DNA of 23,007 bases from Micrococcaceae bacterium UBA6021. GTDB lineage: Bacteria > Actinomycetota > Actinomycetes > Actinomycetales > Micrococcaceae. Shown one piece after another: positions 1,359 through 18,697 of this stretch. A model generated the notes under the pieces. The model made no database searches. It saw only the letters and a program-made list of their open reading frames with translations, and was not told the origin of the DNA. Both the position numbers and the translations under genes were made by a program. The stretch is taken from contig DIZT01000053.1 in assembly GCA_002427975.1 (NCBI GenBank), positions 1,637 through 24,643 on the forward strand, given 5' to 3'. Within the stretch, counting starts at the first letter, position 1; each line of letters opens with the position of its first letter.

Positions 1359-2897
1359 GCCCATCCGTTGGGTTAGGACTGTCTGGGGTAGGGCCGTCCG
1401 GTGAGGCTGGCAGGCGAACGTCGCCTGCACCCGGAAGGCCTCCGCGAAGATCACTGGCGCCCAGGTCAAGGCGGAACGGCGGATATTCATCCCGCATCAG
1501 GGCGACGTAAGTGATGACACGGTAAATCCAGCGATTGAAGCCCAAAAGCAGGTCGAACAGCGGGCGCTGGTAGCGGCCGCTGAACAGCAGGATCACCGCC
1601 GCAACAAGAACCAGGAAGCCGAGCAGCGAAAACCCCATGCCGGTCTCGTATCTGATGCCCGGCGCTACGGGGTCGCTCCAGCGGACGGTGCTGGTGCCGG
1701 TCAGCGCCGCAACGATGATCAGTTGAGGCAGCGCCAGGAGCCACCACTTGACCAGCACGAGCCCACGCGAAAGACGCTCAGGGTAATCAACCTCGAAATC
1801 GGCTGGGTAGTCCGTCCTGGCCAGCGTAAACGGCGGGTACTTATCTGTTCCCAGCGCGGCGTAGGCATAGAAAGCCACCCGCCAATTCCAACGAAGGACT
1901 CCTACATTGAAATCGAAAAGGGAACGGGGAAAGCGGCCCGTAAACAGGATGGCGAATCCGGCGATTACGGTGACGACAACGAACGCAAACCAGAGGAAGA
2001 ACAGCACAATGAAGTGCGGTATGACCAGGAACCACTTCACGAGCCACAGCCACCTGGATAACACCGGGTCGAGTTCACCCCAAAGCCGTGCAGGGTACGA
2101 CGCTGTCTCCCCAGCGGAATAGGACGGGGTCGGCTGGACTGCTGAACCGGAATACGCCCAGGGCGCTGTGACCCCGGGCATCGAAGCGGCCACCGGTGGC
2201 AGAGCGGCTCCCGGCGGGGCGGCCGCATGGGCGTGCCTGCCCAGTCCTTGGGCGCCGAAAATCAGCAGCGGAACCCCGGCAGAATGGCTCCCGCTGCCAG
2301 CAGACTGGCGGCTATCGGGCCAAAAAGCTCAGACCGGAACCCGGCCTTCAGGTCGGCGCGAGTGTCCGGACTGGCATCGGTATTCATTACGACCACTGAC
2401 CAGTTCCCCGACAGGATCTTCCAGTCAAATTCCTGTTCCCCCGCTCCCGAAGCTGATGCCACCCAAAAGTCCTGCCCGGATGGAAGAGGCGGTTGCTGTG
2501 ATCCCCGTGTTTCCCGATACTCAACATGGAAGGGCCGGAAACTGAGGTCCAGCAGCTCGGAGTAGTTGGCCCCGGACAGGTAGCGCTCCACGTCAGACCG
2601 GGGGGCTATCCCGACAAAGATCTCTTTGCCGGGATTAGCGGATTCCGCCGAAATCCGGATGCTGCCCACATCAAAGGGCAAAGGCCCGGGGTAGGCGGCA
2701 TCACGCATGTTGTCCGGCCCCGCGGAAATGATCGCTGAGGAATCAACGTCGAAGCGTTCACTCGGTGAGGTGAGCTAGCCGCCGTCGTTCTGGAGTGAAT
2801 TCACCCACGCGGCACCGATGCCGCCGAAGAGCAACCCGATACCCATCATCGAGAACAAAATACCGAGAATGAGCATGGTGATGGAACGGGCCCGCAT
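1342..2897 (-). pseudogene. DUF4389 membrane protein gene, broken by an amber codon and a frameshift
   Basis: Read from the ATG at 2895-2897 (ribosome binding site GGAGGA at 2903-2908, 5-base spacing), this gene begins MRARSITMLILGILFS, a membrane segment. It meets TAG at codon 41 (2775-2777). The same frame then continues (LTSPSERFDVD, VFVGIAP-like FVGIAPRSDVERYL, DFWVASASG) to a stop at 2262. A shift near 2270-2280 is needed to enter the frame of 1342-2193. That frame carries two DUF4389-type repeats, each with a [20 protein letters not shown] start, a VKW segment, membrane helices and a [16 protein letters not shown] motif. With one base restored the gene would encode about 518 residues, close to what I recall for the family. 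Codon 41 is where an aromatic Tyr would be expected, so TAC/TAT to TAG is likely. The 283-residue downstream piece could still be translated alone from about 2193. Confidence 0.75.
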
Positions 2898-2965: not shown

Positions 2966-3925
2966 TCAGCCCCGCGTGCCGCCGCGGGTAGGGCCATAGG
3001 TCACTCGTGGAAGCTGCAACTGCGTGCCGGAATCAGCAGCCGGTCGGGGTGCAGGTCGCGTGATGATGGTGGGACAAGGCAACCGCATCAGAACCTTTTC
3101 GGCTATGGATCCGATGGGTTTCCGTAGTCCGCCCCGTCCCCAGCAGCCGATCACCAGCAGGCTTGCCTGTTCTGCGGCACGGATGAGCACGTCGGCAGGA
3201 GAGTCATCCGATTCCAGTGCCTCGTAAACAGTCAGCGACTGAAATTTCTCCCGCATGTTGCCAGCAGCTTCTGAAATGAGCGTCCGGGGGTCAGGCTTAC
3301 GGCTGTAACCGGGTTCGGTCCGGCTTCCTGCGGCAGCTGGTGGCAGCACTTTCGATACAGCATGCAGAACTGTCAGCGACTCTCCCATCCGATTTGCCTC
3401 GTCCGCCGCCATCTTCAGGGCAAGCTCGGAGTCAACCGACCCGTCGATGCCAACCACCACCCCTGTTCGGCCCGCCACACTGGGAGCGGGAATGACAGCG
3501 ACGGGACTTTGACACAGGACAGCCGTCTGGAAGCTGACCGACCCAAATCCCTCTCCCCGGCTGTCTGCTGAACGGTCCGAACCGATAACCACAATCTCGG
3601 CGCCCACGGACAACATGCTAAGCACCAGTGCTGGCTCGCCGGGATGCCAGTTGGTGCCGATCGGCAGCGTCGGATGCCGCTCGGCCACCCGGTCGCGCTC
3701 CAGGCCCAGCAGCACCTCCGCCCCGGCCACCGCCTTCCCGTACTCCGCCGGCACCCTGTAGTACCAGGGCGCCGGTACCACTCGCACCAAATGCAGGCGA
3801 AGACCTCGTCCATTCGCTCTCTGCGCAGCCCAGTCCGCAGCCTCTTGGCCCGTCCTGGAGCCATCGGCCCCTACCAGGACTTCGTCCGCTTTCAAGTCCT
3901 GCCCCCTTTCATCATTTCCCCTCAC
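2966..3925 (-). CDS. Tandem universal stress protein (two Usp domains)
   Basis: A 319-residue protein with two UspA-type domains: about residues 12-145 (VLVGADGS start, PVAVIPAP end) and about 155-290 (GVVVGIDGSVDS start, CPTIITRPAP end). In domain 2 the ATP loop reads GCWGRGGLRKPIGS, one residue shorter than the usual G2xG9xG(S/T). In domain 1 the loop is degenerate (GSDRSADSRGEGFGS), so ATP binding there is doubtful. The start is either GTG at 3923-3925, with AGGGAGA six bases upstream, or TTG at 3893-3895, with AGGGGG six bases upstream; I kept the longer form. A DosR-box-like site lies upstream at 3956-3969. Tandem Usp proteins of this kind belong to hypoxia regulons in actinobacteria. 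The function is taken to be stress adaptation through nucleotide binding. Confidence 0.9.
   Translation of the reverse strand: MRGNDERGQDLKADEVLVGADGSRTGQEAADWAAQRANGRGLRLHLVRVVPAPWYYRVPAEYGKAVAGAEVLLGLERDRVAERHPTLPIGTNWHPGEPALVLSMLSVGAEIVVIGSDRSADSRGEGFGSVSFQTAVLCQSPVAVIPAPSVAGRTGVVVGIDGSVDSELALKMAADEANRMGESLTVLHAVSKVLPPAAAGSRTEPGYSRKPDPRTLISEAAGNMREKFQSLTVYEALESDDSPADVLIRAAEQASLLVIGCWGRGGLRKPIGSIAEKVLMRLPCPTIITRPAPRPAADSGTQLQLPRVTYGPTRGGTRG
2991..3004. promoter_or_regulatory. DosR-box-like site upstream of the DUF4389 pseudogene
   Basis: GGGCCATAGGTCAC matches the palindromic core GGGNCNNNNGNCCC with one mismatch. It lies inside the last codons of the minus-strand usp gene, about 95 bases before the DUF4389 start. 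It is nearly identical to the site at 6237-6250. Being in coding sequence it could be coincidental. Confidence 0.4.
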
Positions 3926-3955
3926 CCAGTGTCTCCCTGAGTCACGGAACGGCTA

Positions 3956-3969
3956 GTGCCATAAGCCCC
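3956..3969. promoter_or_regulatory. DosR-box-like site between divergent usp and oxidoreductase genes
   Basis: GTGCCATAAGCCCC fits GGGNCNNNNGNCCC with one mismatch, the same T-for-G change seen at 10437-10450. It lies 31 bases from the GTG start of usp (minus) and about 100 bases from the oxidoreductase ATG (plus). It could serve either or both. It overlaps the left arm of a hairpin (3965-3986). Confidence 0.45.
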
Positions 3970-3986
3970 CGGCTGCCTCCGGGGGC
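3965..3986 (+). terminator. Strong GC hairpin, terminator-like, in a divergent intergenic region
   Basis: GCCCCCGG (3965-3972) pairs perfectly with CCGGGGGC (3979-3986) around a six-base loop and is followed by CTTTCG. It looks like a short-tailed intrinsic terminator for plus-strand transcription, yet no plus-strand gene ends upstream of it. It may insulate the 4069 gene from antisense readthrough or act in its leader. Confidence 0.45.
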
Positions 3987-4068
3987 CTTTCGTCCCTGTT
4001 GCCCGTCCCCGGAGCCATTGTCTACTGGATGCACACGCAGACCGCGGCGTTCCCATCAAAGGAAGACC

Positions 4069-4710
4069 ATGACCAACATCACCATTCTCGGCAGCGGGCA
4101 CATGGCCCGCGCACTCGCCGTGACGATGCTGCGAGCAAACAACCCGGTACAGATTCTTGGCCGCGACGGCGCCAAAACACGGGACCTGGTTGAAAGCCTG
4201 GGACCCGGCGCAACGGGAGGCCTGACCGGGGCGCCCGTCACAGGAGCCATAATCTTCCTGGCCATCCCGCACAAGGAGGTGCATAACGCCATCCTGGAAA
4301 CCGGTGACCTTCTCGACGGACGGGTCGTAGTGGATATCAGCAACACAGTGGATGTCACAAACTTCGATAGGCTGACCACGGAGCCCGGCACCTCCGCGGC
4401 CGAAGAGACAGCGCGGCTGCTAAAGGGGCGCGCCGATGTGGTGAAGGCGTTCAACACCACGTTCCCCGCAACGCTGGAAGCCGGAAAAGTCTCGGGACAG
4501 CACCTGGATGTTTTCATCGCAGGCGACTCGGAGCAGGCCAAAGAGAAGGTCAGCGCCGTGACAGCGGCCGCGGGACTCAGGCCCATTGACGTCGGACCCC
4601 TTCGGCGCTCGCGCGAACTGGAAGCCATCATGCTGGTTGTCATGGGCCTTCAGGTCAGCCCTGAGCACGAGCATTTCAACTGGGACACGGCGCTCAGGAT
4701 ATTTCCTTAG
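4069..4710 (+). CDS. NAD(P)-binding oxidoreductase, F420:NADP reductase-like fold
   Basis: A 213-residue protein that begins with a Rossmann fold: ITILGSGHMARALA carries the G8-x-G10-x-x-A13 dinucleotide loop. Further conserved pieces are IIFLAIPH (mid-domain strand), VVVDISNTVD and the VKAFNTTF block typical of the COG2085 group of F420-dependent NADP reductase-like proteins. That group includes true F420:NADP reductases and many uncharacterised reductases, so the substrate is not assigned. The ATG at 4069 follows GGAAG at 4061-4065. The frame is open far upstream, but nothing in that extension resembles a protein domain. The last codons lie in a 15-base direct repeat (4699-4735). The gene is convergent with the MBL nuclease and may share the DosR-like site at 3956. 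Confidence 0.85.
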   Translation: MTNITILGSGHMARALAVTMLRANNPVQILGRDGAKTRDLVESLGPGATGGLTGAPVTGAIIFLAIPHKEVHNAILETGDLLDGRVVVDISNTVDVTNFDRLTTEPGTSAAEETARLLKGRADVVKAFNTTFPATLEAGKVSGQHLDVFIAGDSEQAKEKVSAVTAAAGLRPIDVGPLRRSRELEAIMLVVMGLQVSPEHEHFNWDTALRIFP

Positions 4711-4735
4711 GAGAGGACACATATTTCCTTAGGAG
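4699..4735. repeat. 15-base direct repeat at the 3' end of the oxidoreductase gene
   Basis: ATATTTCCTTAGGAG occurs at 4699-4713 and again, perfectly, at 4721-4735. The first copy includes the stop codon. This looks like a small local duplication and leaves the protein end unchanged. Confidence 0.85.
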
Positions 4736-4755
4736 GGGCCCTGGCGATCCCTCCT
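4731..4755. terminator. Hairpin between convergent genes, possible bidirectional terminator
   Basis: AGGAGGG (4731-4737) pairs with CCCTCCT (4749-4755) around an 11-base loop. On the plus strand a weak T-run (GTTTTA) follows a few bases later. It sits between the ends of the oxidoreductase and MBL genes, where a shared terminator is expected. Confidence 0.5.
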
Positions 4756-4763
4756 GCGGAGTT

Positions 4764-6149
4764 TTAGCGGGCATGTTTAAGATCTACCATTTCAAGGTGT
4801 TCAGGAACCCGGACGTTCCAGCCCAGTTCACGTTTGATGCGAAACCGCAAGGCGTCAGATGCCTCCGGCTCACCGTGGGTGATATAGGTCATGCGGGGAG
4901 CCTGAGGGGCTGCGCGCATCCACTCGACGATTTCGTTGGAATCCGCATGCGCCGAAAGACTGTCCAACATGACCACTTGGGCCTTAATGGGTATTTCCTG
5001 GCCAAAGATCCGTAACTGCCGCGCCCCGCCGGCCAGTGCGGCACCACGCGTCCCCTCGGCCTGGTATCCGCTAAGCACCACCACGTTTTTCGGGTCGGGT
5101 CCGTAGGCCTGCAGATGGTGCAGGATCCGGCCCCCCGTGAGCATGCCGCTCGCCGAGATGATCACCATGGGGCCGCCGCGCAGGTTCAGCAGTTTGGAAT
5201 CATCCACACTTCGGGTCATGGTGGCCACCCGATACATCTCTTTGTACTCGCGTTCATTCAGCCGATGTTCTTCGGGGTGCCTCTGGTACATCCCTGATGC
5301 GTCGACGGCCATCGGGCTATTGAGGTAAATGGGGATGTCCGGGATCGCCCCGCGCCGCCGGAGGCGCGAGAGATGCAGCATCAGCGTCTCCGCCCTTCCT
5401 ACCGCGAAGGCCGCAATGAGGACGACTCCTCCCCTCTTCGCCGCTCGTACTATGACTTCTCCCAACTCAGCCTCCGGATCTGTCACCGGGTGGGACCGGT
5501 TGCCGTACGTGGATTCGGCCACCAGAACGTCGGTGGCCTCAAGTGCCCGCGGGCGGTGCATCAGTGGATCATGGGGCCGGCCGAGGTCGCCGGTGAAGTG
5601 CACATGAGCGCCCTGCACGGACAACCGGATCTGCGAAGCGCCCAAGATGTGTCCCGCCGGCACAAAAGTTGCCTGGATGCCACCCCCGAGGTCGAAGGAT
5701 GTGTCAAAATCGTGCGATTCGAAGCTGTTCAGGGACCGCACGGCATCGGCGGCTGTGTATACCGGCACGGCGGGGTGATGGGATGAATACTCGTGCAGGT
5801 CCGCGTAGCGCGTTTCTTCCTCCTGGAGGTGTCCGCTGTCGGGCAGGAGGAGCGTGCACAGCTCCGTGGTGGCCGCAGTAGCATGTACGCGCCCGCGGAA
5901 GCCGTCCCGCACCAGCGCCGGTACGTAGCCTGTATGGTCCAGGTGGGCGTGTGTCAGCAATACAGCGTCAATGGATGCCGGAGGTACCGGAAACGGTGCC
6001 CGGTTACGGACCCGGATGCGTTTGATTCCTTGGAACAATCCACAGTCGATAAGAATCCGCCGCCCTCCCGCATCCACGAGATACCGGGACCCCGTCACAG
6101 TCTCGGTTGCCCCCAGAAAGCGGAGAGTGTCCGCGTCCTTGTCCTTCAT
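4764..6149 (-). CDS. MBL-fold beta-CASP ribonuclease-like hydrolase
   Basis: A 461-residue metallo-beta-lactamase-fold protein of the beta-CASP type, the group of RNA-processing nucleases. Metal-site motifs run in order: THAHLDH (His67, His69, Asp71, His72), GHILGAS (His167), FTGDLG (Asp188), the beta-CASP acid in AESTYG (Glu212), SAHAD (His401) and THGEP (His425). The C-terminal RNA-specificity segment is present, and the length is normal for the COG1236 group. Two zinc ions and RNA phosphodiester cleavage are expected from the family. The ATG at 6147-6149 has GGGGAG a few bases upstream. It is divergent from devR, and DosR-like boxes lie between the two. Possible roles are RNA turnover on entry to dormancy (inference). 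The exact RNA target is unknown. Confidence 0.93.
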   Translation of the reverse strand: MKDKDADTLRFLGATETVTGSRYLVDAGGRRILIDCGLFQGIKRIRVRNRAPFPVPPASIDAVLLTHAHLDHTGYVPALVRDGFRGRVHATAATTELCTLLLPDSGHLQEEETRYADLHEYSSHHPAVPVYTAADAVRSLNSFESHDFDTSFDLGGGIQATFVPAGHILGASQIRLSVQGAHVHFTGDLGRPHDPLMHRPRALEATDVLVAESTYGNRSHPVTDPEAELGEVIVRAAKRGGVVLIAAFAVGRAETLMLHLSRLRRRGAIPDIPIYLNSPMAVDASGMYQRHPEEHRLNEREYKEMYRVATMTRSVDDSKLLNLRGGPMVIISASGMLTGGRILHHLQAYGPDPKNVVVLSGYQAEGTRGAALAGGARQLRIFGQEIPIKAQVVMLDSLSAHADSNEIVEWMRAAPQAPRMTYITHGEPEASDALRFRIKRELGWNVRVPEHLEMVDLKHAR

Positions 6150-6236
6150 TACTCCCCTTTTCCGAGAAAAAACAGTGGTATGCGGACCCGAAACGGCCGG
6201 TGCACAACGTTCTCCCCGTTACCCGCGGCAGCGGTA

Positions 6237-6250
6237 GGGCCATTGGTCAC
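6237..6250. promoter_or_regulatory. DosR-box-like site 1 in the devR/MBL intergenic region
   Basis: GGGCCATTGGTCAC fits GGGNCNNNNGNCCC with one mismatch. It is 88 bases from the MBL nuclease start and 126 from devR. It is paired with a perfect core match 23 bases further on, as in regulated mycobacterial promoters that carry two boxes. Confidence 0.6.
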
Positions 6251-6272
6251 AGCGTCCGGGCGCCAGCGGTTC

Positions 6273-6286
6273 GGGTCATTGGACCC
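6273..6286. promoter_or_regulatory. DosR-box-like site 2, perfect core, upstream of devR
   Basis: GGGTCATTGGACCC is a full match to the core GGGNCNNNNGNCCC and nearly a perfect palindrome. It lies 90 bases before the devR ATG. Positive autoregulation of the response regulator is the natural reading. Confidence 0.65.
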
Positions 6287-6330
6287 TTGTGGCATCCTGG
6301 CCGTTCCTAAAGAATGAGTCAGGCGCAGGC

Positions 6331-6347
6331 GGGCACCCTTGGTGCCC
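6331..6347. promoter_or_regulatory. Perfect inverted repeat in the devR leader
   Basis: GGGCACCCTTGGTGCCC has 7-base arms (6331-6337 and 6341-6347) separated by CTT and ends 28 bases before the devR ATG. Its spacing differs from the DosR-like boxes, so it may be an operator for another regulator or a leader hairpin. Confidence 0.5.
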
Positions 6348-6375
6348 TTGGAACGGCGGCGCGGAGGGGATAGGC

Positions 6376-7059
6376 ATGAACGCCACTGCAGCATCGGAGC
6401 ACGAGGTTGCCTCGTCCAACACCGGCATTAGTGTGTTCATCCTTGACGATCATGAACTGGTCCGCCGGGGCCTCCAGGACCTTTTGGAAAGCGAAGGTTT
6501 CGTCGTCGTCGGGATGTCCGGTTCTGCCGCCGAAGCGGCCCGCCGGATTCCAGCGCTGCACCCGGACGTTGCAATCCTGGATGCGCGCCTACCAGACGGT
6601 ACAGGCATCGAAGTGTGCCGCGATGTCCATTCCGTTGATGAAACAATTAATTGCCTGATCCTCACAAGCTACGACGACGAGCAGGCACTCCGCGGGGCAG
6701 TCCTGGCGGGTGCCTCAGGTTACGTTCTCAAGGAAATAGGTGGTTCGGACCTGATCGGCGCCCTGCGCCGCGCAGCCCGGGGTGAATCCCTGTTCGATGC
6801 CGCCCTGAAAGCCAGGATCGTTCAGGGGCTCACAGAACCTGAGCGCGTGGACCCAAGGATCGCGTCGTTGACCCGGCAGGAGCGCAGAGTGCTGGAACTG
6901 GTCGGGCAAGGCCTGACGAACCGTCAGATCGGCGAACGCATGCTGCTGGCGGAAAAGACAGTCAAGAACTATGTCTCGTCCCTGCTTGCCAAGCTGGGTT
7001 TCGAGCGGCGGACACAGGCCGCGGTTCATATGGCACAGCATTCCTCCCCTGACCAGTAG
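6376..7059 (+). CDS. devR: DevR/DosR-like NarL-family response regulator
   Basis: A 227-residue two-component regulator. The receiver domain (about residues 18-135) has the acidic pair Asp24/Asp25, phospho-acceptor Asp69 in ILDARLPDG, Thr97 in LILTSY and Lys119 in GYVLKE. The LuxR/NarL helix-turn-helix (about 163-222) contains LTNRQIGERM, then LAEKTVKNYVSSLLAKLG. The blocks LAEKTVKNYVS, RRTQAAV and LAGASGYV closely match what I recall of mycobacterial DosR, so the subfamily call is firmer than usual. I chose the ATG at 6376 because AGGGGA lies just upstream (6365-6370). The frame is open back to 6289, but that stretch holds the inverted repeat and abuts the DosR-like box. It is convergent with its likely kinase, with only three bases between the stops. 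It probably activates the surrounding genes under low oxygen. Confidence 0.93.
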   Translation: MNATAASEHEVASSNTGISVFILDDHELVRRGLQDLLESEGFVVVGMSGSAAEAARRIPALHPDVAILDARLPDGTGIEVCRDVHSVDETINCLILTSYDDEQALRGAVLAGASGYVLKEIGGSDLIGALRRAARGESLFDAALKARIVQGLTEPERVDPRIASLTRQERRVLELVGQGLTNRQIGERMLLAEKTVKNYVSSLLAKLGFERRTQAAVHMAQHSSPDQ

Positions 7060-7062
7060 GAG

Positions 7063-8853
<1,791 letters not shown>

Positions 8854-8879
8854 TCATCTAGGCTGTTCGGTTTGATTAG

Positions 8880-8893
8880 GGGTCTTTGTGCCC
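8880..8893. promoter_or_regulatory. DosR-box-like site between divergent devS and PNPOx genes
   Basis: GGGTCTTTGTGCCC fits GGGNCNNNNGNCCC with one mismatch. TACATA right after it (8894-8899) could be a -10 element for the plus-strand gene. It could drive both directions. It also argues against a PNPOx start at 8888. Confidence 0.5.
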
Positions 8894-8929
8894 TACATAG
8901 CGGGGCAGCTGCTCCGTATGATCTTGGCC

Positions 8930-9397
8930 ATGACCACAGACGCATCGATACCGGAGACCGCCGAGCTGCCAGCTGAGGAGTGCTGGCGGTTACTGCAAGG
9001 CGATTCGGTGGGCCGCCTTGCCGTGTGGGTGAACGACCACCCCGAGATCTTTCCCATCAACTACAAGGTCCACCATGAATCCCTGGTCTTCCGCACGGGT
9101 GCGGGCACCAAGCTTGCATCCGCCTTGGGCAAGCAGGTTGCACTTGAAGTCGATGGTGCCGACACGGACAGCGGCGTGGCATGGAGCGTCGTCGTGAAAG
9201 GTCCGGCTACAGCGCTTGACCGGACCCCCGAAGTCCTGGAGTCCATCGGACACTTACTGTTCCCCTGGGAAACGGGCCGCAAAGACCATTTCCTCCGTAT
9301 TGTCCCGGAGAGCGTCAGTGGAAGACGGTTCAGAATTGCCGCGCCGCTGACCTGGGGCGGCCCCTTGGATGAGGCCACCCGCGCCGGACTGGAATAA
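8930..9397 (+). CDS. PNPOx-fold flavin/cofactor-binding protein
   Basis: A 155-residue protein of the pyridoxamine 5'-phosphate oxidase-like split-barrel fold. Recognisable blocks are [16 protein letters not shown] at the N-terminus, [18 protein letters not shown], the central VALEVDG strand and WSVVVKG. Members of this group bind FMN, F420 or haem and include many reductases of unknown substrate; I cannot say which cofactor applies. The most likely start is the ATG at 8930. An in-frame ATG at 8918 has GGGGCAG about ten bases before it, and the frame is open from 8888, but that extension overlaps the DosR-like box. A clear paralogue lies at 16600-17064. The gene is eight bases upstream of adh and probably co-transcribed with it. 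Confidence 0.85.
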
Positions 9398-9404
9398 CCG
9401 GTTC

Positions 9405-10409
9405 ATGCAGGCATGGTGGGTTGAGGATCCCGGTCCCATCGGGTCAGGCCCATTACGGACGGGCGAGCGCCCCGATCCGTCCCCGGGGCCGGGCGAGGTC
9501 CTGCTCTCTGTACTCGCGTGTGGAGTCTGCCGCACAGATCTCCACCTGGCTGAAGGAGACCTGCCGCCCCATGGCTCCCGCCGAATCCCGGGTCACGAAG
9601 TGGTCGCCGAGGTGGTGGGGCTGGGAGCAGGCAGCTCCAGGTTCCGGCCCGGCGAGCGTGTCGGAGCAGCCTGGCTGGCCCGCACCTGCGGCTCCTGCCG
9701 TTTCTGCCGTCGCGGGTCCGAGAACCTCTGCCTGGCACCGGCATTTACCGGCTGGGACACCGACGGCGGGTACGCCGAGCTGATGACCGTCCACGAGGAT
9801 TATGCGTACCGGATACCCGAAGTATTTACCGATGAGCAAGCGGCGCCCTTGCTGTGCGCAGGAATCATCGGCTACCGGGCCCTTCGTTCCTCCGGCCTAC
9901 CGCCGGGTGGCAAACTCGGTATTTATGGCTTTGGTGGGTCGGCCCACCTGACAGCGCAGATGGCCCTCTACGAGGGTGCCAGCGTCTACGTCATGACACG
10001 ATCAGCGGCGGCGCAGAGGCTGGCACTTGAACTGGGTGCAGAGTTTGCCGGGCCCGCCGAAGCAGACCCGCCTGAACTCTTGGACGCGGCCATCCTGTTC
10101 GCGCCAGCGGGCCAACTGGTACCAACCGCGCTTCGTGCTCTGGACCGCGGAGGCACGCTCGCCGTCGCCGGCATCCATTTGAGCGACATTCCGGTCCTGG
10201 ACTACCAAAAGGACCTTTTTCAGGAGCGCAGCCTGCGCAGTGTCACGGCCAACACCCGGGCCGATGGGCGGGAATTCCTCGCGCTGGCAGAGCAAATACC
10301 GCTCCGCCCCACCACGGTCCCCTACCCGTGGACAAAGGCCGACCAGGCCTTGGTGGACCTGTCCCTGGACCGATTCACGGGAGCCGCCGTATTGCTCCGG
10401 GAGGGCTGA
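9405..10409 (+). CDS. Zinc-dependent alcohol dehydrogenase, AdhA-like
   Basis: A 334-residue medium-chain dehydrogenase/reductase. Catalytic zinc ligands are Cys42 (CGVCRTDLH), His64 (PGHEVV) and Cys151 ([12 protein letters not shown]). Structural zinc ligands are Cys95, Cys98, Cys101 and Cys109. The dinucleotide loop is GFGGSAH (about 175-181). The block [17 protein letters not shown] is typical of the AdhA-type bacterial enzymes that interconvert primary alcohols and aldehydes with NAD(P). The ATG at 9405 gives the usual N-terminus ([12 protein letters not shown]). The frame is open from 9369, but that would overlap the preceding gene by 29 bases and add residues not seen in the family. It probably forms an operon with the PNPOx gene. 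In this setting it may regenerate NAD+ when respiration stops (inference). Confidence 0.92.
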
Positions 10410-10436
10410 GGCGGCACCGGAAACCCTGGGTCTTCA

Positions 10437-10450
10437 GTGACCTTAGGCCC
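10437..10450. promoter_or_regulatory. DosR-box-like site upstream of the usp operon
   Basis: GTGACCTTAGGCCC is one mismatch from GGGNCNNNNGNCCC. Its reverse complement, GGGCCTAAGGTCAC, closely parallels the sites at 2991 and 6237. It ends 35 bases before the first usp ATG. Confidence 0.55.
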
Positions 10451-10485
10451 TAGGCCACCGACGGATCCTGGGGGAAGGTACTGCC

Positions 10486-10953
10486 ATGAGTGATAATGAT
10501 CGCATCCTTGTTGGAATCGACGGTTCCGAATACTCCCCCGCGGCGCTGCGCCTCGCCGGGCGCTTGGCGTCCGCACTGGACGCACCGTTGCACGTCGTCA
10601 CCTGCCTGGGCTTCTCCGACTTCTACCTGCCAGCGCACTTGCCTCCCGGGGAGATCGACAGCACGGCTGAGCTTGAGGCGATCGCCAAACGCCTCATGGA
10701 GCAGGCCATCGACAGGGCCTACGGCGCGGAGCGCCCGGAACATCTCACGACAGCCGTGAAGGCGGGGTCGCCTGCCAAGGTCCTGGTTGACGAAAGCCGC
10801 GACGCCCAACTGCTCGTCGTCGGGCGGCGCGGCCACGGCGGCCTCCTTGGCCAGCTCATGGGCTCTGTCAGCGCAGCGTGTACAGCCCACGCGCACTGCC
10901 CTGTGCTGGTGGTCAGCCAGGATGCCGGGAACCACGATGCAACCGACCACTGA
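10486..10953 (+). CDS. Universal stress protein, single domain
   Basis: A 155-residue single UspA domain. It opens with RILVGIDGSEYS and ends with CPVLVVSQD. The ATP-binding loop is complete: GRRGHGGLLGQLMGS fits G2xG9xG(S/T), so ATP binding is expected. The ATG at 10486 follows GGGGGAAGG, about six bases upstream. It is the first of three usp genes that overlap end to start: the next gene begins 17 bases before this one stops. A DosR-like box lies 35 bases upstream. Role by family: stress or low-oxygen adaptation through nucleotide binding; no enzymatic activity is implied. Confidence 0.92.
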   Translation: MSDNDRILVGIDGSEYSPAALRLAGRLASALDAPLHVVTCLGFSDFYLPAHLPPGEIDSTAELEAIAKRLMEQAIDRAYGAERPEHLTTAVKAGSPAKVLVDESRDAQLLVVGRRGHGGLLGQLMGSVSAACTAHAHCPVLVVSQDAGNHDATDH

Positions 10954-11452
10954 ACTGCCGCCAATCGTGGTGGGTGTGGACGGAAGCGCTCCGTCCATAC
11001 TCGCGCTGCGCTGGGCGGGCGCGTTGGCGCCGCTGCTCAAGGCCCATATCCGGGCCGTGTCCTGCTGGCATTTCCAGATCGCCGTCGGAACATTCCTACC
11101 GGTTGACTGGAACCCCGAAGAGGACGCCCGGAACGTCTGTGCAGAGGCAGTGGCCAAGGCCTTCGACGGCGTTCTTCCGGCAGGGCTTGAAATGGTGGCA
11201 GTCCAAGGGCCGGCGGCCAAGATCCTGGTCGAAGAAAGCCGGTCAGCTCAGTTGGTCATAGTGGGCAGCCGTGGCCACGGAGGTTTTGAAGGGCTGCTGC
11301 TCGGGGCGGTAAGCGCAACAGTCGCTGAACACGCAAAATGCCCTATCCTTGTCGCCCATGGACTCGACCTGCCGGCAGGGATTTCGGTTGCTCCCGGTCA
11401 GGCTTCCGCGGAGGGGGGCGCGCAGGCCGGGTCCAGCCATGCCCTCCCGTGA
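10937..11452 (+). CDS. Universal stress protein, single domain, overlapping its neighbours
   Basis: A 171-residue protein with one Usp domain (about residues 9-140, PIVVGVDGSAPS to CPILVAHG) and a Gly/Ala-rich tail of about 28 residues. The loop GSRGHGGFEGLLLGA has the right spacing but ends in Ala where Ser or Thr usually contacts phosphate, so nucleotide binding may be altered. The ATG at 10937 gives the normal Usp N-terminus. The frame is open from 10787, but that extension lies in the preceding usp gene. It overlaps the upstream gene by 17 bases and the downstream one by 14, which suggests coupled translation and roughly matched amounts. Confidence 0.88.
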   Translation: MQPTTELPPIVVGVDGSAPSILALRWAGALAPLLKAHIRAVSCWHFQIAVGTFLPVDWNPEEDARNVCAEAVAKAFDGVLPAGLEMVAVQGPAAKILVEESRSAQLVIVGSRGHGGFEGLLLGAVSATVAEHAKCPILVAHGLDLPAGISVAPGQASAEGGAQAGSSHALP

Positions 11453-12314
11453 CCGCGTGGTGGTTGGCTACGACGGGTCGGGTGAGGCCACCTTGGCAGT
11501 ACGCTGGGCTGCACGGAATGCGGTGCTTTTGGACTGTGAACTGCAGGTGGTTCATTGTTCGCTGTGGCCGCTGCTGACCCGTGACCTGGGACCCGTCCCA
11601 GGCGTGGCCGGCAGCGGACTGCAACATCAGGCGCAGGCCATCCTTGATGAAGGACAAGCCGAGGCGCTGTCCGTGGCGCCCCGGGCCAGGATCAGGAGCA
11701 GCCTCCTGCACGGACTCCCCGCAGGCCATCTCCGTCGGATCGCGGACAATGCGCGGATGCTGGTTCTTGGCAGCCGCGGGATCGGTGGCTTTATGGGACT
11801 TCTGGTGGGATCAGTAAGTCTGGAACTCGCCGCGACGGCCTCCTGTCCCGTTGCGGTCATCCGGTTCGATCAGAACCCGGAAGGGCGCATCGTGGTGGGA
11901 ATTGACTCCTCAGGATCGGCGGACGCCCTGAGTATTGCCTGTGCCATCGCCAGTGCCACGGGAGCGGACCTGATTCTGATGCACGTCATCCGGCCCCATG
12001 ACGGCACGGCCAACAACGCCGGAGATGGCCAAAGAGCGGCCCGTCGTCTCCTCCAGACGGCGGCTCACGACGCCCGGGCCCTGGCTCCGGACGTGCCTAT
12101 CAGCCAGCACGTCGCCCAGGATACGTCGGTCCCGCGGGCGCTCCTCAATGCCGGTCGCGGCGCCGCCCTCATCGTTGTCGGCAACAAGGGCCGGGGGCTT
12201 CTCGGCGGAACTATCGGGTCAAATGCCCATGCAGTCCTCCACCACGCCACCGGCCCCGTCTTGATCTCCCGGCAGCCGGAGCCCGGCCGGACCATAAGCA
12301 ATTGGAAGACCTGA
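11439..12314 (+). CDS. Tandem universal stress protein (two Usp domains)
   Basis: A 291-residue protein with two Usp domains: about residues 5-143 (RVVVGYDGSGEA to CPVAVIRF) and about 150-280 (RIVVGIDSSGSA to GPVLISRQ). The first loop, GSRGIGGFMGLLVGS, is a full G2xG9xG(S/T) motif. The second, GNKGRGLLGGTIGS, is one residue short. The ATG at 11439 is used because it yields a normal N-terminus, although the frame is open from 11349. It overlaps the preceding usp gene by 14 bases and ends the operon: the next gene has its own DosR-like box and a 125-base gap. The domain layout parallels the other tandem Usp at 2966-3925. Confidence 0.9.
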   Translation: MPSRDRVVVGYDGSGEATLAVRWAARNAVLLDCELQVVHCSLWPLLTRDLGPVPGVAGSGLQHQAQAILDEGQAEALSVAPRARIRSSLLHGLPAGHLRRIADNARMLVLGSRGIGGFMGLLVGSVSLELAATASCPVAVIRFDQNPEGRIVVGIDSSGSADALSIACAIASATGADLILMHVIRPHDGTANNAGDGQRAARRLLQTAAHDARALAPDVPISQHVAQDTSVPRALLNAGRGAALIVVGNKGRGLLGGTIGSNAHAVLHHATGPVLISRQPEPGRTISNWKT

Positions 12315-12334
12315 GCCGCCGCCGTCGGTCTCCC

Positions 12335-12348
12335 GGGACCTTTGTCCC
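12335..12348. promoter_or_regulatory. DosR-box-like site, perfect core, upstream of adh-flavodoxin-ATPase operon
   Basis: GGGACCTTTGTCCC matches GGGNCNNNNGNCCC at every fixed position, and its GGGAC/GTCCC arms are those of the mycobacterial consensus TTSGGGACTWWAGTCCCSAA. It ends 91 bases before the adh ATG. Confidence 0.65.
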
Positions 12349-12439: not shown

Positions 12440-13495
12440 ATGAAAGCCATCGTTTACGGAGGCCCAGGGAAGAAGTCCTGGACAGATGTTCCCGATCCGG
12501 CCATCCGGAATCCCACCGATGCCATTGTCAAGGTCGACACCACGACCATCTGCGGGACCGATCTGCACATCCTCAAAGGGGATGTACCGGCTGTAACGAC
12601 AGGAAGAATCCTCGGCCACGAAGGGGTGGGAACCATCACCGAGGTGGGGTCGTCCGTTACCAGCCTGAAGCCGGGCGACCGGGTGATCATTTCCTGCATC
12701 AAGTCCTGCGGCCATTGCGCCAACTGTAAGAGCGGCCTCTATTCGCATTGCCTGGGCGACGAGGGCGCCTCGGGCATCGGTTGGGTCTTCGGCCACCTGA
12801 TCGACGGGACCCAGGCCGAATACGTCCGCGTCCCCTACGCGGAAAACTCCCTGCACCTGCTGCCGGCCGGCGTGAGTGACGAGCAGGCCGTTATGCTCTC
12901 CGACATTCTCCCGACGGGCTTCGAGATCGGCGTGCAATACGGCCGGGTGAAGCCCGGCGACACGGTGGCGGTGGTCGGGGCAGGCCCGGTGGGACTGGCA
13001 GCAATCGCCACGGCGGGGCTCTATGGAGCGGCCACCATCATCGCCGTCGACCTTGACGGGAACCGCCTGGAAAAGTCCCGCGGGTTTGGCGCCACCCACG
13101 TCGTGCTCTCAGGGGACTCCAACTGGAAGGAACAGGTGCTGGGCCTGACTGACGGCCAGGGCGTTGATGTGGCCATCGAAGCAGTGGGGATTCCCGCGAC
13201 CTTCAGCATGTGTACCGAGATCGTCCGGCCGGGCGGGAACGTGGCCAACGTCGGCGTCCACGGGAAACCCGTGGAACTGCATATGGAGGACCTTTGGATC
13301 AAGAACATCAGCATCAGCATGGGACTCGTGAATGCCAACACCACTCCGATGCTGCTGAAACTCGTCGCCCAGAAGAAGCTCCCGGCGGAGAAGTTCGCAA
13401 CGCACCACTTCCGCTTTGACCAGTTCATGGATGCCTACGACACCTTCGCCCGTGCCGCAGAAACGAACGCCCTGAAGGTGGTCATCACGGCATGA
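12440..13495 (+). CDS. Zinc-dependent alcohol dehydrogenase (tetrameric MDR type)
   Basis: A 351-residue medium-chain dehydrogenase. Catalytic zinc ligands fit the Cys38 (TICGTDLH), His60 (LGHEGVG) and Asp155 (SDILPTG) pattern of tetrameric secondary-alcohol dehydrogenases. Structural zinc cysteines are at 90, 93, 96 and 104. The dinucleotide loop is VVGAGPVGL (about 178-186), and Asp204 at the end of the second strand (IAVDLDGNRL) favours NAD+ over NADP+. It differs clearly from the AdhA-like enzyme at 9405, so the two probably have different substrates. The ATG at 12440 has AGGAACGG upstream. Its stop overlaps the flavodoxin ATG (ATGA). It leads a four-gene operon that ends with the P-type ATPase. 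Confidence 0.93.
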   Translation: MKAIVYGGPGKKSWTDVPDPAIRNPTDAIVKVDTTTICGTDLHILKGDVPAVTTGRILGHEGVGTITEVGSSVTSLKPGDRVIISCIKSCGHCANCKSGLYSHCLGDEGASGIGWVFGHLIDGTQAEYVRVPYAENSLHLLPAGVSDEQAVMLSDILPTGFEIGVQYGRVKPGDTVAVVGAGPVGLAAIATAGLYGAATIIAVDLDGNRLEKSRGFGATHVVLSGDSNWKEQVLGLTDGQGVDVAIEAVGIPATFSMCTEIVRPGGNVANVGVHGKPVELHMEDLWIKNISISMGLVNANTTPMLLKLVAQKKLPAEKFATHHFRFDQFMDAYDTFARAAETNALKVVITA

Positions 13496-17134: not shown

Positions 17135-17156
17135 AGGACCAAAGCCTCTGGGTCCT
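17135..17156. promoter_or_regulatory. Inverted repeat in the PNPOx/hsp20 intergenic region
   Basis: AGGACC (17135-17140) pairs with GGTCCT (17151-17156) around a ten-base loop. The left part, AGGACCAAAGCCTC, has two mismatches from the DosR-like core, so I do not count it as a box, but it lies where one would be expected. Confidence 0.35.
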
Positions 17157-17229: not shown

Positions 17230-17652
17230 ATGGCTGATTTGATGAAATGGTTTGACACCCGGCGCTCCCCCGTCGAGATGATTGAGAGGCTTTTCGAAGG
17301 TGATACGGCGGCGTCGGGTATCCGCGTCGAAGAGTCGGTTGAAGGTGACACACTGGTGGTCCGGGCCGAACTGCCGGGGATTGATCCCGACAAGGACGTC
17401 AGCGTCTCCATCGTTGACGGCGCCCTTGAGATCAAGGCCGAGCGCAGGGAGAAGTCCGAGCAGAAGGACAAGGACAGTTACCGTTCGGAGTTCCGCTATG
17501 GTTCATTCGTCCGGAGGCTCGCCCTGCCCGACGGCGTTCAACACGATGACATCACCGCCTCGTACAAGGACGGGGTGCTGGAAGTCCGGACGCCGGTCCC
17601 GACGGCCGCCCAGCAGCCTCCGGCAAGGAAGATTGAGATAGCGCGCGGATAG
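17230..17652 (+). CDS. Hsp20/alpha-crystallin small heat-shock protein
   Basis: A 140-residue small heat-shock protein. The alpha-crystallin domain spans about residues 32-122, with VRAELPGIDPDKDVSVSI near the start and the family signature ASYKDGVLEVRTPV near the end. The C-terminal RKIEIARG holds the I-x-I oligomerisation motif. Such proteins bind unfolding proteins without ATP. A strong ribosome site, AAGGAGG (17218-17224), lies five bases before the ATG; the open frame back to 17050 is not a plausible extension. In Mycobacterium tuberculosis the corresponding protein (HspX/Acr) is a leading DosR target, and the neighbours here support the same role. Regulation here may run through the two inverted repeats upstream. 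Confidence 0.95.
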   Translation: MADLMKWFDTRRSPVEMIERLFEGDTAASGIRVEESVEGDTLVVRAELPGIDPDKDVSVSIVDGALEIKAERREKSEQKDKDSYRSEFRYGSFVRRLALPDGVQHDDITASYKDGVLEVRTPVPTAAQQPPARKIEIARG

Positions 17653-17671: not shown

Positions 17672-18697
17672 TCAGCCGAACAGGACCGCTGCCTCCCGGT
17701 AACGGTCCTCAGGCACGGTCTTGAGCCGGCCCAGTGAAGCGTCAAATCCGACGTTCACGATGCTGGTACCGCGCAGGGAGACCACGGTCCCCCAACGGCC
17801 GCTGGCAGCCGAATCCACGGCTGCCATGCCCAGCCGGGTAGCCAGCACCCGGTCAAAGGCAGTGGGGGCGCCACCCCGCTGGATGTGGCCCAAAACCGTA
17901 GCCCGGGTTTCGATTCCGGTCAGCCCCTGCAGCTCGCGCTCCAGGAGAATTCCGATGCCGCCCAGCCGTGGCCTGCCGAAGGTGTCCAGGCCGCGGGGGA
18001 AGTACGGCGCATCCTGGCCCTCCAGGACGAAAGCCTCTGCGACAACCACCAACGGCGCCCGTCCGCGGTCGCGCGCGGACTGCACCCACCCGGCAACCTG
18101 CTCCAACGGAAGCCTGTGCTCCGGAATCAGGATGGCGTGGGCGCCCGAAGCCATCCCCGCATGAAGGGCTATCCAGCCTGCATTCCGGCCCATGACTTCG
18201 GCGATCATGCAGCGGTGATGCGACTCTCCGGTGGTGCGAAGCCGGTCGATGGCCTCTGTCGCCGTCTGGACCGCGGTGTTAAATCCGAAGGTGAAATCGG
18301 TGGCGTCGAGGTCGTTGTCGATGGTCTTGGGAACTCCAACAACGTTAATACCTTGGTTTGACAGTTCCTGCGCGGCCGCCAGTGTGCCCTCTCCCCCGAT
18401 GGCGACCAGGCCGTCGACGCCGAGGCGGGTGAGGCTCTCGCGCACCGCATCCACTCCGCCTTCCTTTAGCGGATTGGTCCGCGAGGTGCCAAGGATGGTC
18501 CCGCCAAGAGGGGCGATCCCCCGCACGGCACGTCTGGGCAAGGGGACCACGTCCCCTTCAAGCACCCCCCTCCACCCGTCACGGAAACCGACGAAATCAT
18601 ACCCGTGGGAAATGACGCCACTCAGCACAGCCCCGCGGATCACGGCATTCAGTCCGGGGCAGTCCCCGCCGCTGGTCAGGATGCCAAGCCTGGTCAT
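17672..18697 (-). CDS. pfkA: 6-phosphofructokinase, actinobacterial ATP type
   Basis: A 341-residue PfkA family enzyme that phosphorylates fructose 6-phosphate to fructose 1,6-bisphosphate in glycolysis. Key pieces: LTSGGDCPGLNAVIRG at the nucleotide site, IGGEGTL (Gly104 at the position that is Asp in PPi-dependent enzymes), PKTIDNDL (Lys124, catalytic Asp127), MGRNAGWIAL and GHIQRGG. The Gly104/Lys124 combination is the actinobacterial ATP-dependent pattern as I recall it; substrate preference is still inference. The ATG at 18695-18697 overlaps the ppsA stop by four bases (ATGA), so it is coupled to a gluconeogenic enzyme. It is convergent with hsp20. Confidence 0.94.
   Translation of the reverse strand: MTRLGILTSGGDCPGLNAVIRGAVLSGVISHGYDFVGFRDGWRGVLEGDVVPLPRRAVRGIAPLGGTILGTSRTNPLKEGGVDAVRESLTRLGVDGLVAIGGEGTLAAAQELSNQGINVVGVPKTIDNDLDATDFTFGFNTAVQTATEAIDRLRTTGESHHRCMIAEVMGRNAGWIALHAGMASGAHAILIPEHRLPLEQVAGWVQSARDRGRAPLVVVAEAFVLEGQDAPYFPRGLDTFGRPRLGGIGILLERELQGLTGIETRATVLGHIQRGGAPTAFDRVLATRLGMAAVDSAASGRWGTVVSLRGTSIVNVGFDASLGRLKTVPEDRYREAAVLFG

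Follow-up and report, generated by a model that had tools for sequence, protein, structure and literature searches.

A very probable DevR/DosR-type hypoxia or redox regulon with phased promoter sites in a chromosomal island of a soil actinobacterium related to Arthrobacter

The DNA discussed here, 23,007 nucleotides of contig DIZT01000053.1 from Micrococcaceae bacterium UBA6021 (called the window, at its full length), very probably holds a chromosomal island that brings together a hypoxia or redox regulon of the DevR/DosR (OsdR) type. In this soil actinobacterium related to Arthrobacter, a compact stress-gene set appears to carry DevR/DosR-type oxygen-responsive switch sites at its promoters; DevR binding, activation, the oxygen signal and the transcription starts are predictions from sequence. 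The regulon is of a known kind and its site variant is lineage-enriched, with the signal carried by the A/T centre of the sites and a phased -10 box. The original prediction, made from the letters of this stretch, had proposed a DosR-like regulon with recurring sites at gene starts, and the matrix ranks, conservation and phased boxes described below bear this out.

All seven sites of that prediction were confirmed at their coordinates, those at 6273 and 12335 as perfect matches and those at 2991, 3956, 6237, 8880 and 10437 with one mismatch. A pattern scan also upheld the statement that four of the latter share a GTGNC half-site, which is read on the minus strand at 2991 and 6237 and on the plus strand at 3956 and 10437. 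The fifth, 8880, is a variant of the GGGNA type when read on the minus strand. The match at 3983, the third perfect one, had been overlooked. The placement near gene starts holds except at 2991, which sits within the 3' end of a universal stress protein (usp) open reading frame (2966-3910) and likely serves the next minus-strand gene, with its ATG at 2897. The seven sites, the further match and two weak variants are as follows.

6273 to 6286, plus strand: DevR site GGGTCATTGGACCC, toward devR, -103 from the ATG; -10-like AAGAAT, box at +37
6237 to 6250, minus strand: DevR site GTGACCAATGGCCC, toward the MBL-fold gene, 101 bp from the ATG at 6149; box at +38
8880 to 8893, plus strand: DevR site GGGTCTTTGTGCCC, toward PNPOx1; TATGAT at 8917-8922, ATG at 8930, box at +37
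10437 to 10450, plus strand: DevR site GTGACCTTAGGCCCTAG, toward usp2, ATG at 10486, predicted leaderless; box at +37
12335 to 12348, plus strand: DevR site GGGACCTTTGTCCC, toward adhB, -105 from the ATG; box at +37
3956 to 3969, minus strand: DevR site GGGGCTTATGGCAC, toward the double-domain usp gene 2966-3910; box at +36
2991 to 3004, minus strand: DevR site GTGACCTATGGCCCTAC, toward the small gene 2775-2897, -107 from the ATG; box at +37
3983 to 3996, no strand assigned: eighth strong match, to the perfect pattern, 13.9 bits, rank 4; no phased -10 box either way
17135 to 17148, plus strand: weak variant site AGGACCAAAGCCTC, toward hsp20, beyond the range of the original prediction; 4.4 bits, phased box
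21132 to 21145, minus strand: weak variant site AGGACCAAAGCCTC, toward pps, possible leaderless ATG at 21096; 2.35 bits, A38/T42 box

Relatives came from a scan of named genomes, as the best 80 of 582, and comprise 20 named Micrococcaceae devR loci (L031-L050), including a near twin of the window (L031), and 60 devR loci of other, non-Micrococcaceae actinobacteria (L051-L110); the devR loci compared are related by descent. Genes were called by a script trained on the window genes, and their start positions are approximate. A weight matrix was trained on 28 intergenic sites of L032-L050. Since neither the window nor its near twin contributed, its sequences are independent of the window but its pattern is not, the training sites having been found with the original prediction's own pattern. 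Among window positions the seven sites take ranks 1, 2, 3, 5, 6, 8 and 9 with this matrix, rank 4 going to 3983 and rank 7 to a coding match at 18968. Seven window positions score at least 12 bits, whereas 100 dinucleotide shuffles of the window gave 0.56 such positions on average and never more than 3; five of these high-scoring positions belong to the original seven and the other two are 3983 and 18968. The last was rejected as a site, lying inside the phosphoenolpyruvate (PEP) synthase coding sequence and having no phased box in the direction tested.

Counts around devR point the same way. Across the 21 Micrococcaceae loci (the window and L031-L050) the form of the core with a WW centre, GGGNCNWWNGNCCC, occurs 28 times in intergenic DNA and once in coding DNA, a 142-fold intergenic enrichment, whereas the enrichment of 11 control inverted repeats in the same loci lies between 0 and 3.1-fold, and the core with an S/S centre instead occurs once in intergenic and seven times in coding DNA. 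The 60 other actinobacterial loci hold 74 intergenic and 10 coding WW sites. As a separate observation, one control repeat, CCCNCNNNNGNGGG, shows a 9.3-fold intergenic enrichment in those 60 loci (47 intergenic, 39 coding).

The second component of the signal is promoter geometry. At all seven sites a NANNNT -10-like box lies about 23 nt downstream of the core, oriented toward a gene. In L032-L050 this box stands at offsets 36-38 in 44 of 60 site-gene pairs, which include sites counted in both directions, against a background of 3.3% per offset; 27 fall at offset 37, 17 at 38 and 1 at 36, the largest count elsewhere being 6. The corresponding figure for L051-L110 is 66 of 153, with a background of 2.5% and a largest count elsewhere of 16. 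When the 40 window positions scoring at least 3 were required to have a phased box and, 35-135 bp downstream, the start of a listed gene, the seven sites remained, together with a one-base shift of 8880 and with 17135, the latter toward hsp20 and a divergent PNPOx gene. Transcription starts are predicted here 35-36 nt from the core end, which would place the proximal site over the -35 element with class II spacing. Excerpts of a study of Mycobacterium tuberculosis (PMC5360333) place a DosR site 34 bp upstream of the DrrS start, overlapping the -35, liken this promoter to class II CRP promoters and find it in agreement with the canonical distance. ATG codons at offsets 49-51 number 4, 7 and 5 in L032-L050, and 11 and 13 at offsets 49 and 50 in L051-L110; some target mRNAs are therefore probably leaderless. 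In the window the predicted leaderless starts are those at 8930 and 10486, the former because TATGAT at 8917-8922 lies so close to the PNPOx1 ATG.

Conservation was scored over those selected relatives that align with each site. The devR site (rank 1, 19.4 bits) is kept in six of six at -92 to -108, with 16.6-20.1 bits. The PNPOx1 site at 8880 (13.7 bits) is likewise kept in six of six, at -49 to -52 and 7.3-18.2 bits, its counterparts being weak in two (7.3 and 9.0 bits); it has a phased box both ways, +37 toward PNPOx1 and +38 toward devS, and may also serve devS. The usp2 site at 10437 (15.3 bits) is kept in four of four at -49 or -50 (9.6-14.1 bits), and the adhB site at 12335 (17.0 bits) in three of five (L031, L111 and L112, L111 being the locus of genome G013). 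The site at 3956 (rank 8) is kept in the near twin, the one relative aligned, and a 12.2-bit site stands upstream of a uspA relative in L148. The site at 2991 (13.6 bits) is kept at -106/-107 in L031 and L112 and degenerate in L111; in L111 and L112 the small gene adjoins devR, with no MBL and usp genes in between, and L112 has a devR site and a GTGAC site in one intergenic region, which supports 2991 as the small-gene site. For 6237 (rank 9), similar intergenic sites at a devR neighbour occur in L113, L115 and L148 and none in L031, and a single 6237-like site in L112 was assigned to the small gene. With regard to the cooperative paired sites of DevR/DosR target promoters, a second match occurs near devR, where 6237 lies 36 bp from the devR site, and near uspA, where 3983 lies 27 bp from the uspA site; the others are single. 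Counterparts of 3983 are found in L031 and beside an F420-type gene in L155, with none listed beside uspA in L148, and 3983 is a possible distal site or part of a hairpin. At the weaker end, the counterpart of the hsp20 site reads GGGACCAAAGMCTC in G013 and G080 (the latter represented by L151), and the pps site, below the score-3 cut of the phased-box scan, is near-identical in the same two genomes.

The regulator and sensor genes lie between these sites.

6376 to 7059, plus strand: devR, NarL-family response regulator (Pfam Response_reg and GerE helix-turn-helix)
7063 to 8850, minus strand: devS, sensor kinase, start codon uncertain (Pfam GAF, HisKA_3, HATPase)

The best solved relative of DevR is M. 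tuberculosis DevR (3c3w, 214 bits), followed by VraR at 110 bits. In the alignment to 3c3w the positions of D54, K179, K182 and N183 are identical, the last three within the stretch EKTVKNYVS; we take K179, K182 and N183 to be DNA-contacting in DosR. DevR thus combines the receiver and GerE domains, the phospho-Asp and the contact positions of a DevR/DosR response regulator. The GAF domain of DevS aligns to DosS GAF-A (2y8h) at 185 bits and keeps the equivalents of His149 and Tyr171, which with the HisKA_3 and HATPase domains are the features of a DevS/DosT heme sensor kinase; at the Glu87 position it has Gly, as DosT has Gly85. The consulted portions of a review (PMC4082495), from whose description of the construct our DosS residue numbering derives, give His149 as the proximal heme ligand and Tyr171 as the distal residue in DosS GAF-A, and note disagreement over the role of the residue at the Glu87/Gly85 position. 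DevS is predicted to be a heme gas sensor, and may hold oxygen stably. The two genes are convergent with almost no gap (7059-7063), a convergent and adjacent arrangement found in 19 of the 20 Micrococcaceae loci and in 36 of the 80 overall; 13 of the 80 have no devS match.

The distribution of sites beyond the window was followed with a composite pattern (core variants, a T and the box) written after the sites had been seen. In the 3.79-Mb assembly of 346 contigs it has 11 matches, seven on the window's contig (C128), two on C116 and two elsewhere, against 3 for a reversed control. Nine of the 11 therefore fall within two contigs that make up 1.4% of the assembly, and four of six do so when the five original sites that shaped the pattern are left out. 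The sites at 3956 and 6237, whose box stands at different offsets, fall outside the pattern. Of the two further C128 matches, one precedes a usp gene and one a glycoside hydrolase 65 gene. Top matrix scores in four stretches of this genome beyond the window are 11.8, 8.5, 9.2 and 8.2; the first lies directly downstream of the window, has four scores above 10.5, and includes two listed sites with intergenic GTGAC cores, before usp and glycoside hydrolase 65 genes. C116 carries usp, PNPOx-like, P-type ATPase and other genes. By two strong matrix matches on C116 (L147, 4140-8862) lie a DUF1508 gene, an OmpR-type regulator and a histidine kinase, as well as a ferric-reductase-like membrane protein, an FMN-binding protein and an ApbE fragment.

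We counted devR as present where DevR has a match at E 1e-60, which applies to 46 of 61 genomes of the genus and leaves 15 without; in G078 the match is only 53% identical. Composite matches average 10.37 per genome with devR and 2.07 without (reversed control 4.65 against 5.67). WW sites per Mb number 6.14 against 3.76 (reversed control 13.55 against 12.24, P 0.03), and GTGNCNWWNGNCCCTA occurs 2.74 against 0.73 times per genome (control 2.70 against 3.67). The strict form of GTGACYWWNGGCCCTA has 82 matches in 36 genomes, five of them in this genome and none in the 15 devR-less genomes, and 50 of the 82 lie within 25 kb of devR. The 55 non-strict matches resemble background, with 11 in the devR-less genomes and 5 near devR. 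G064 has second usp copies at 2.73 and 3.07 Mb, far from its devR at 3.78 Mb, and their sites have the same placement as those of the main copies. In G001, G006, G007, G017, G029, G062 and G081 there is an additional DevR-like regulator, 52-59% identical to the one here; the extra copy in G081 has an internal stop, and G062 also has a second close copy.

It could be argued that the sites are real regulatory elements read by another NarL-family regulator, devR being a mere neighbour, and the 29 DevR matches in this genome at E 0.001 would be compatible with this. However, only one match remains at E 1e-60, the composite and strict GTG sites track devR across the genus, 50 of the 82 strict ones lie near it, and DevR keeps the recognition-helix residues of DosR, the reader of the same motif. 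We therefore regard a different reader as improbable.

Several results weigh against a DevR regulon, and some of them would fit chance matches to a loose GC-rich pattern picked for their nearness to genes. The one-mismatch pattern GGGNCNNNNGNCCC has 39 matches in the window against 43.96 +/- 6.88 expected, with 80 of 100 shuffles reaching at least 39, and the perfect pattern has 172 matches in the genome against 311 for its reversed control. Neither is an enrichment, so the bare pattern proves nothing and the case rests on the further tests; we discarded the plain one-mismatch 14-mer as evidence, as too loose. The WW form also has fewer genome-wide matches than its reversed control (21 against 43), and 15 of the 21 lie inside called genes, which makes most of them background. 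An even spread over coding and noncoding DNA had been named at the outset as grounds for refutation: around devR the spread is plainly uneven, and genome-wide it is the genic matches that prevail. The sites at 3956 (10.6 bits) and 6237 (8.8 bits) score where chance matches also fall. The box itself appears, at offsets 36-38, in 3 of 14 orientations of coding matrix matches in L032-L050 and 8 of 32 in L051-L110; above background in these few cases, it is either not perfectly specific or some genes are miscalled. The adhB site is absent from two of the five relatives aligned (L113 and L115), and scores are low at hsp20 and pps (4.4 and 2.4 bits). Finally, the composite and strict GTG patterns were defined post hoc, and the genus counts ignore kinship, so that devR-less genomes may form lineages of their own. 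Set against chance are the matrix ranking, the conservation, the intergenic enrichment of the WW form and the phased box on every one of the seven sites. As a set the seven sites are very unlikely to be due to chance, which is the likely origin of 18968 and a possible one of 3983. Genome WW matches were not accepted wholesale as regulon members, since among the matches in the 18 regions examined off C128, 15 are in called genes, two are intergenic (on C116 and C129, the latter with no called gene start found close by) and one, on C19, scores too low to classify.

That the palindromes are RNA elements, whether terminators or hairpins of 5' untranslated regions, is highly improbable: 3983 does adjoin a GC-rich inverted repeat, judged by eye, but all seven cores lie upstream of a phased -10 box and therefore outside the predicted transcript.

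For the DevR regulon, we propose a mechanism in which the DevS heme, on losing oxygen or on binding nitric oxide or carbon monoxide, would trigger autophosphorylation, and DevS would then phosphorylate DevR on Asp69, the D54 equivalent. Phosphorylated DevR would bind 14-bp inverted repeats of the type GGGNC-NWWN-GNCCC, together with the GTGNC and GGGNA variants. A bound site centred about 42 bp upstream of the transcription start and overlapping the -35 would activate sigma-A-type promoters in class II fashion. The predicted targets are devR itself, the usp genes, PNPOx, the alcohol dehydrogenases with the downstream P-type ATPase, the MBL-fold gene and the small gene, with hsp20 and pps as weaker candidates.

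The local consensus of the sites is the symmetric GGGNC form, with GTGNC as an enriched subclass. In this the original prediction, which had offered GTGNCNNNNGNCCC as local consensus, does not hold: in L032-L050 the GGGNC form occurs 22 times in intergenic and once in coding DNA, against 13 and 4 (22-fold) for the GTGNC form GTGNCNWWNGNCCC. In L051-L110 GTGNC has 6 intergenic and 10 coding matches (4.5-fold), and the favoured variant there is AGGNC (21 and 6, 25-fold). GGGNA is found in both sets, at 9 and 3 (20-fold) in L032-L050 and 10 and 5 (14-fold) in L051-L110. The asymmetric GTGACYWWNGGCCCTA could, as a tentative suggestion that we hold to be somewhat short of even, represent a distinct Micrococcaceae class of DevR promoter, in which a strong half-site and a weakened one are fixed about 23 nt from the -10, tuned to a different level of phosphorylated DevR than the symmetric devR and adhB sites and partly driving leaderless usp mRNAs. 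Asymmetry as such is not new, since the weak mycobacterial consensus RRGNCYWNNGNMM permits one degenerate half, as parts of PMC6448022 describe.

The DosR regulon of M. tuberculosis includes usp, hsp20 and P-type ATPase genes, and devR and devS form an operon there. The window has GGGNC...GNCCC sites upstream of usp, hsp20 and related genes, as expected of a DevR/DosR regulon, albeit with a weak site at hsp20; the co-transcribed layout of devR and devS is not found here, where the genes are convergent. Likeness to M. tuberculosis DosR/DevR extends to the regulator and sensor families, the key residues, the motif core and the class II proximal site (as far as sections of PMC3029386 and PMC5360333 describe them). 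In addition to gene order, the differences are the single DevS beside devR with its DosT-like Gly at the Glu87 position, and several predicted promoters with only one site.

The gene content had been said to mirror the mycobacterial regulon, but the OsdR regulon of Streptomyces coelicolor is at least as close. Nor can the motif be called little described outside mycobacteria, as had been supposed, because the OsdR inverted repeat AGGGCCGATCGGCCCT is published and, in the sections consulted of PMC5069765, backed by electrophoretic mobility shift assays and mutated sites. The same sections locate OsdR sites in the neighbourhood of the regulator gene, at genes for usp, alcohol dehydrogenase, PNPOx (with the site at -50) and pyruvate phosphate dikinase, much as here, and describe osdR-osdK as an operon, unlike the convergent devR and devS. 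Further differences are that no nitrate reductase is among the annotated window genes (the genome was not searched for one), that the centre is A/T-biased here, and that the GTGNC variant is enriched in Micrococcaceae. Among the titles listed by searches of one open-access library, none announces a DevR regulon in Arthrobacter or Micrococcaceae, although a mention inside a paper is possible. These findings would extend a regulon investigated mainly as a tuberculosis dormancy programme to common soil bacteria. They also give a sharper rule (core, 23-24 nt, NANNNT), which tells likely targets from background better than does the 14-mer by itself and can be applied to other actinobacterial genomes with devR.

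The remaining genes of the set are listed below.

2775 to 2897, minus strand: small predicted gene, likely target of 2991 (gene call; 82-90% identical in L031, L111 and L112)
2966 to 3910, minus strand: uspA, universal stress protein with two Usp domains (Pfam Usp, 121.7 bits, 2 stretches)
4764 to 6149, minus strand: MBL-fold / Beta-Casp / RMMBL protein (Pfam)
8930 to 9397, plus strand: PNPOx1, pyridoxamine 5'-phosphate oxidase-like (Pfam Pyridox_ox_2)
9405 to 10409, plus strand: adhA, zinc-type alcohol dehydrogenase (Pfam ADH_N)
10486 to 12314, plus strand: three usp genes, 10486-10953, 10937-11452 and 11439-12314 (Pfam Usp)
12440 to 13495, plus strand: adhB, zinc-type alcohol dehydrogenase (Pfam), followed by flavodoxin-like genes and a P-type ATPase, to 16589
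17230 to 17652, plus strand: Hsp20 / alpha-crystallin (Pfam HSP20)

At 18694-22932 on the minus strand the C-terminal part of a P-type ATPase and PEP synthase lie in a single open frame, unbroken by a stop. In G013 (L111) the stretch between the two matches is likewise free of stops, and G080 (L151) has stops; an independent start of PEP synthase is possible, at 21096 or 21078. Just past the downstream end of the island, at about 30.4 kb on C128, lies a gene of the phage integrase family (L125, 5938-6714).

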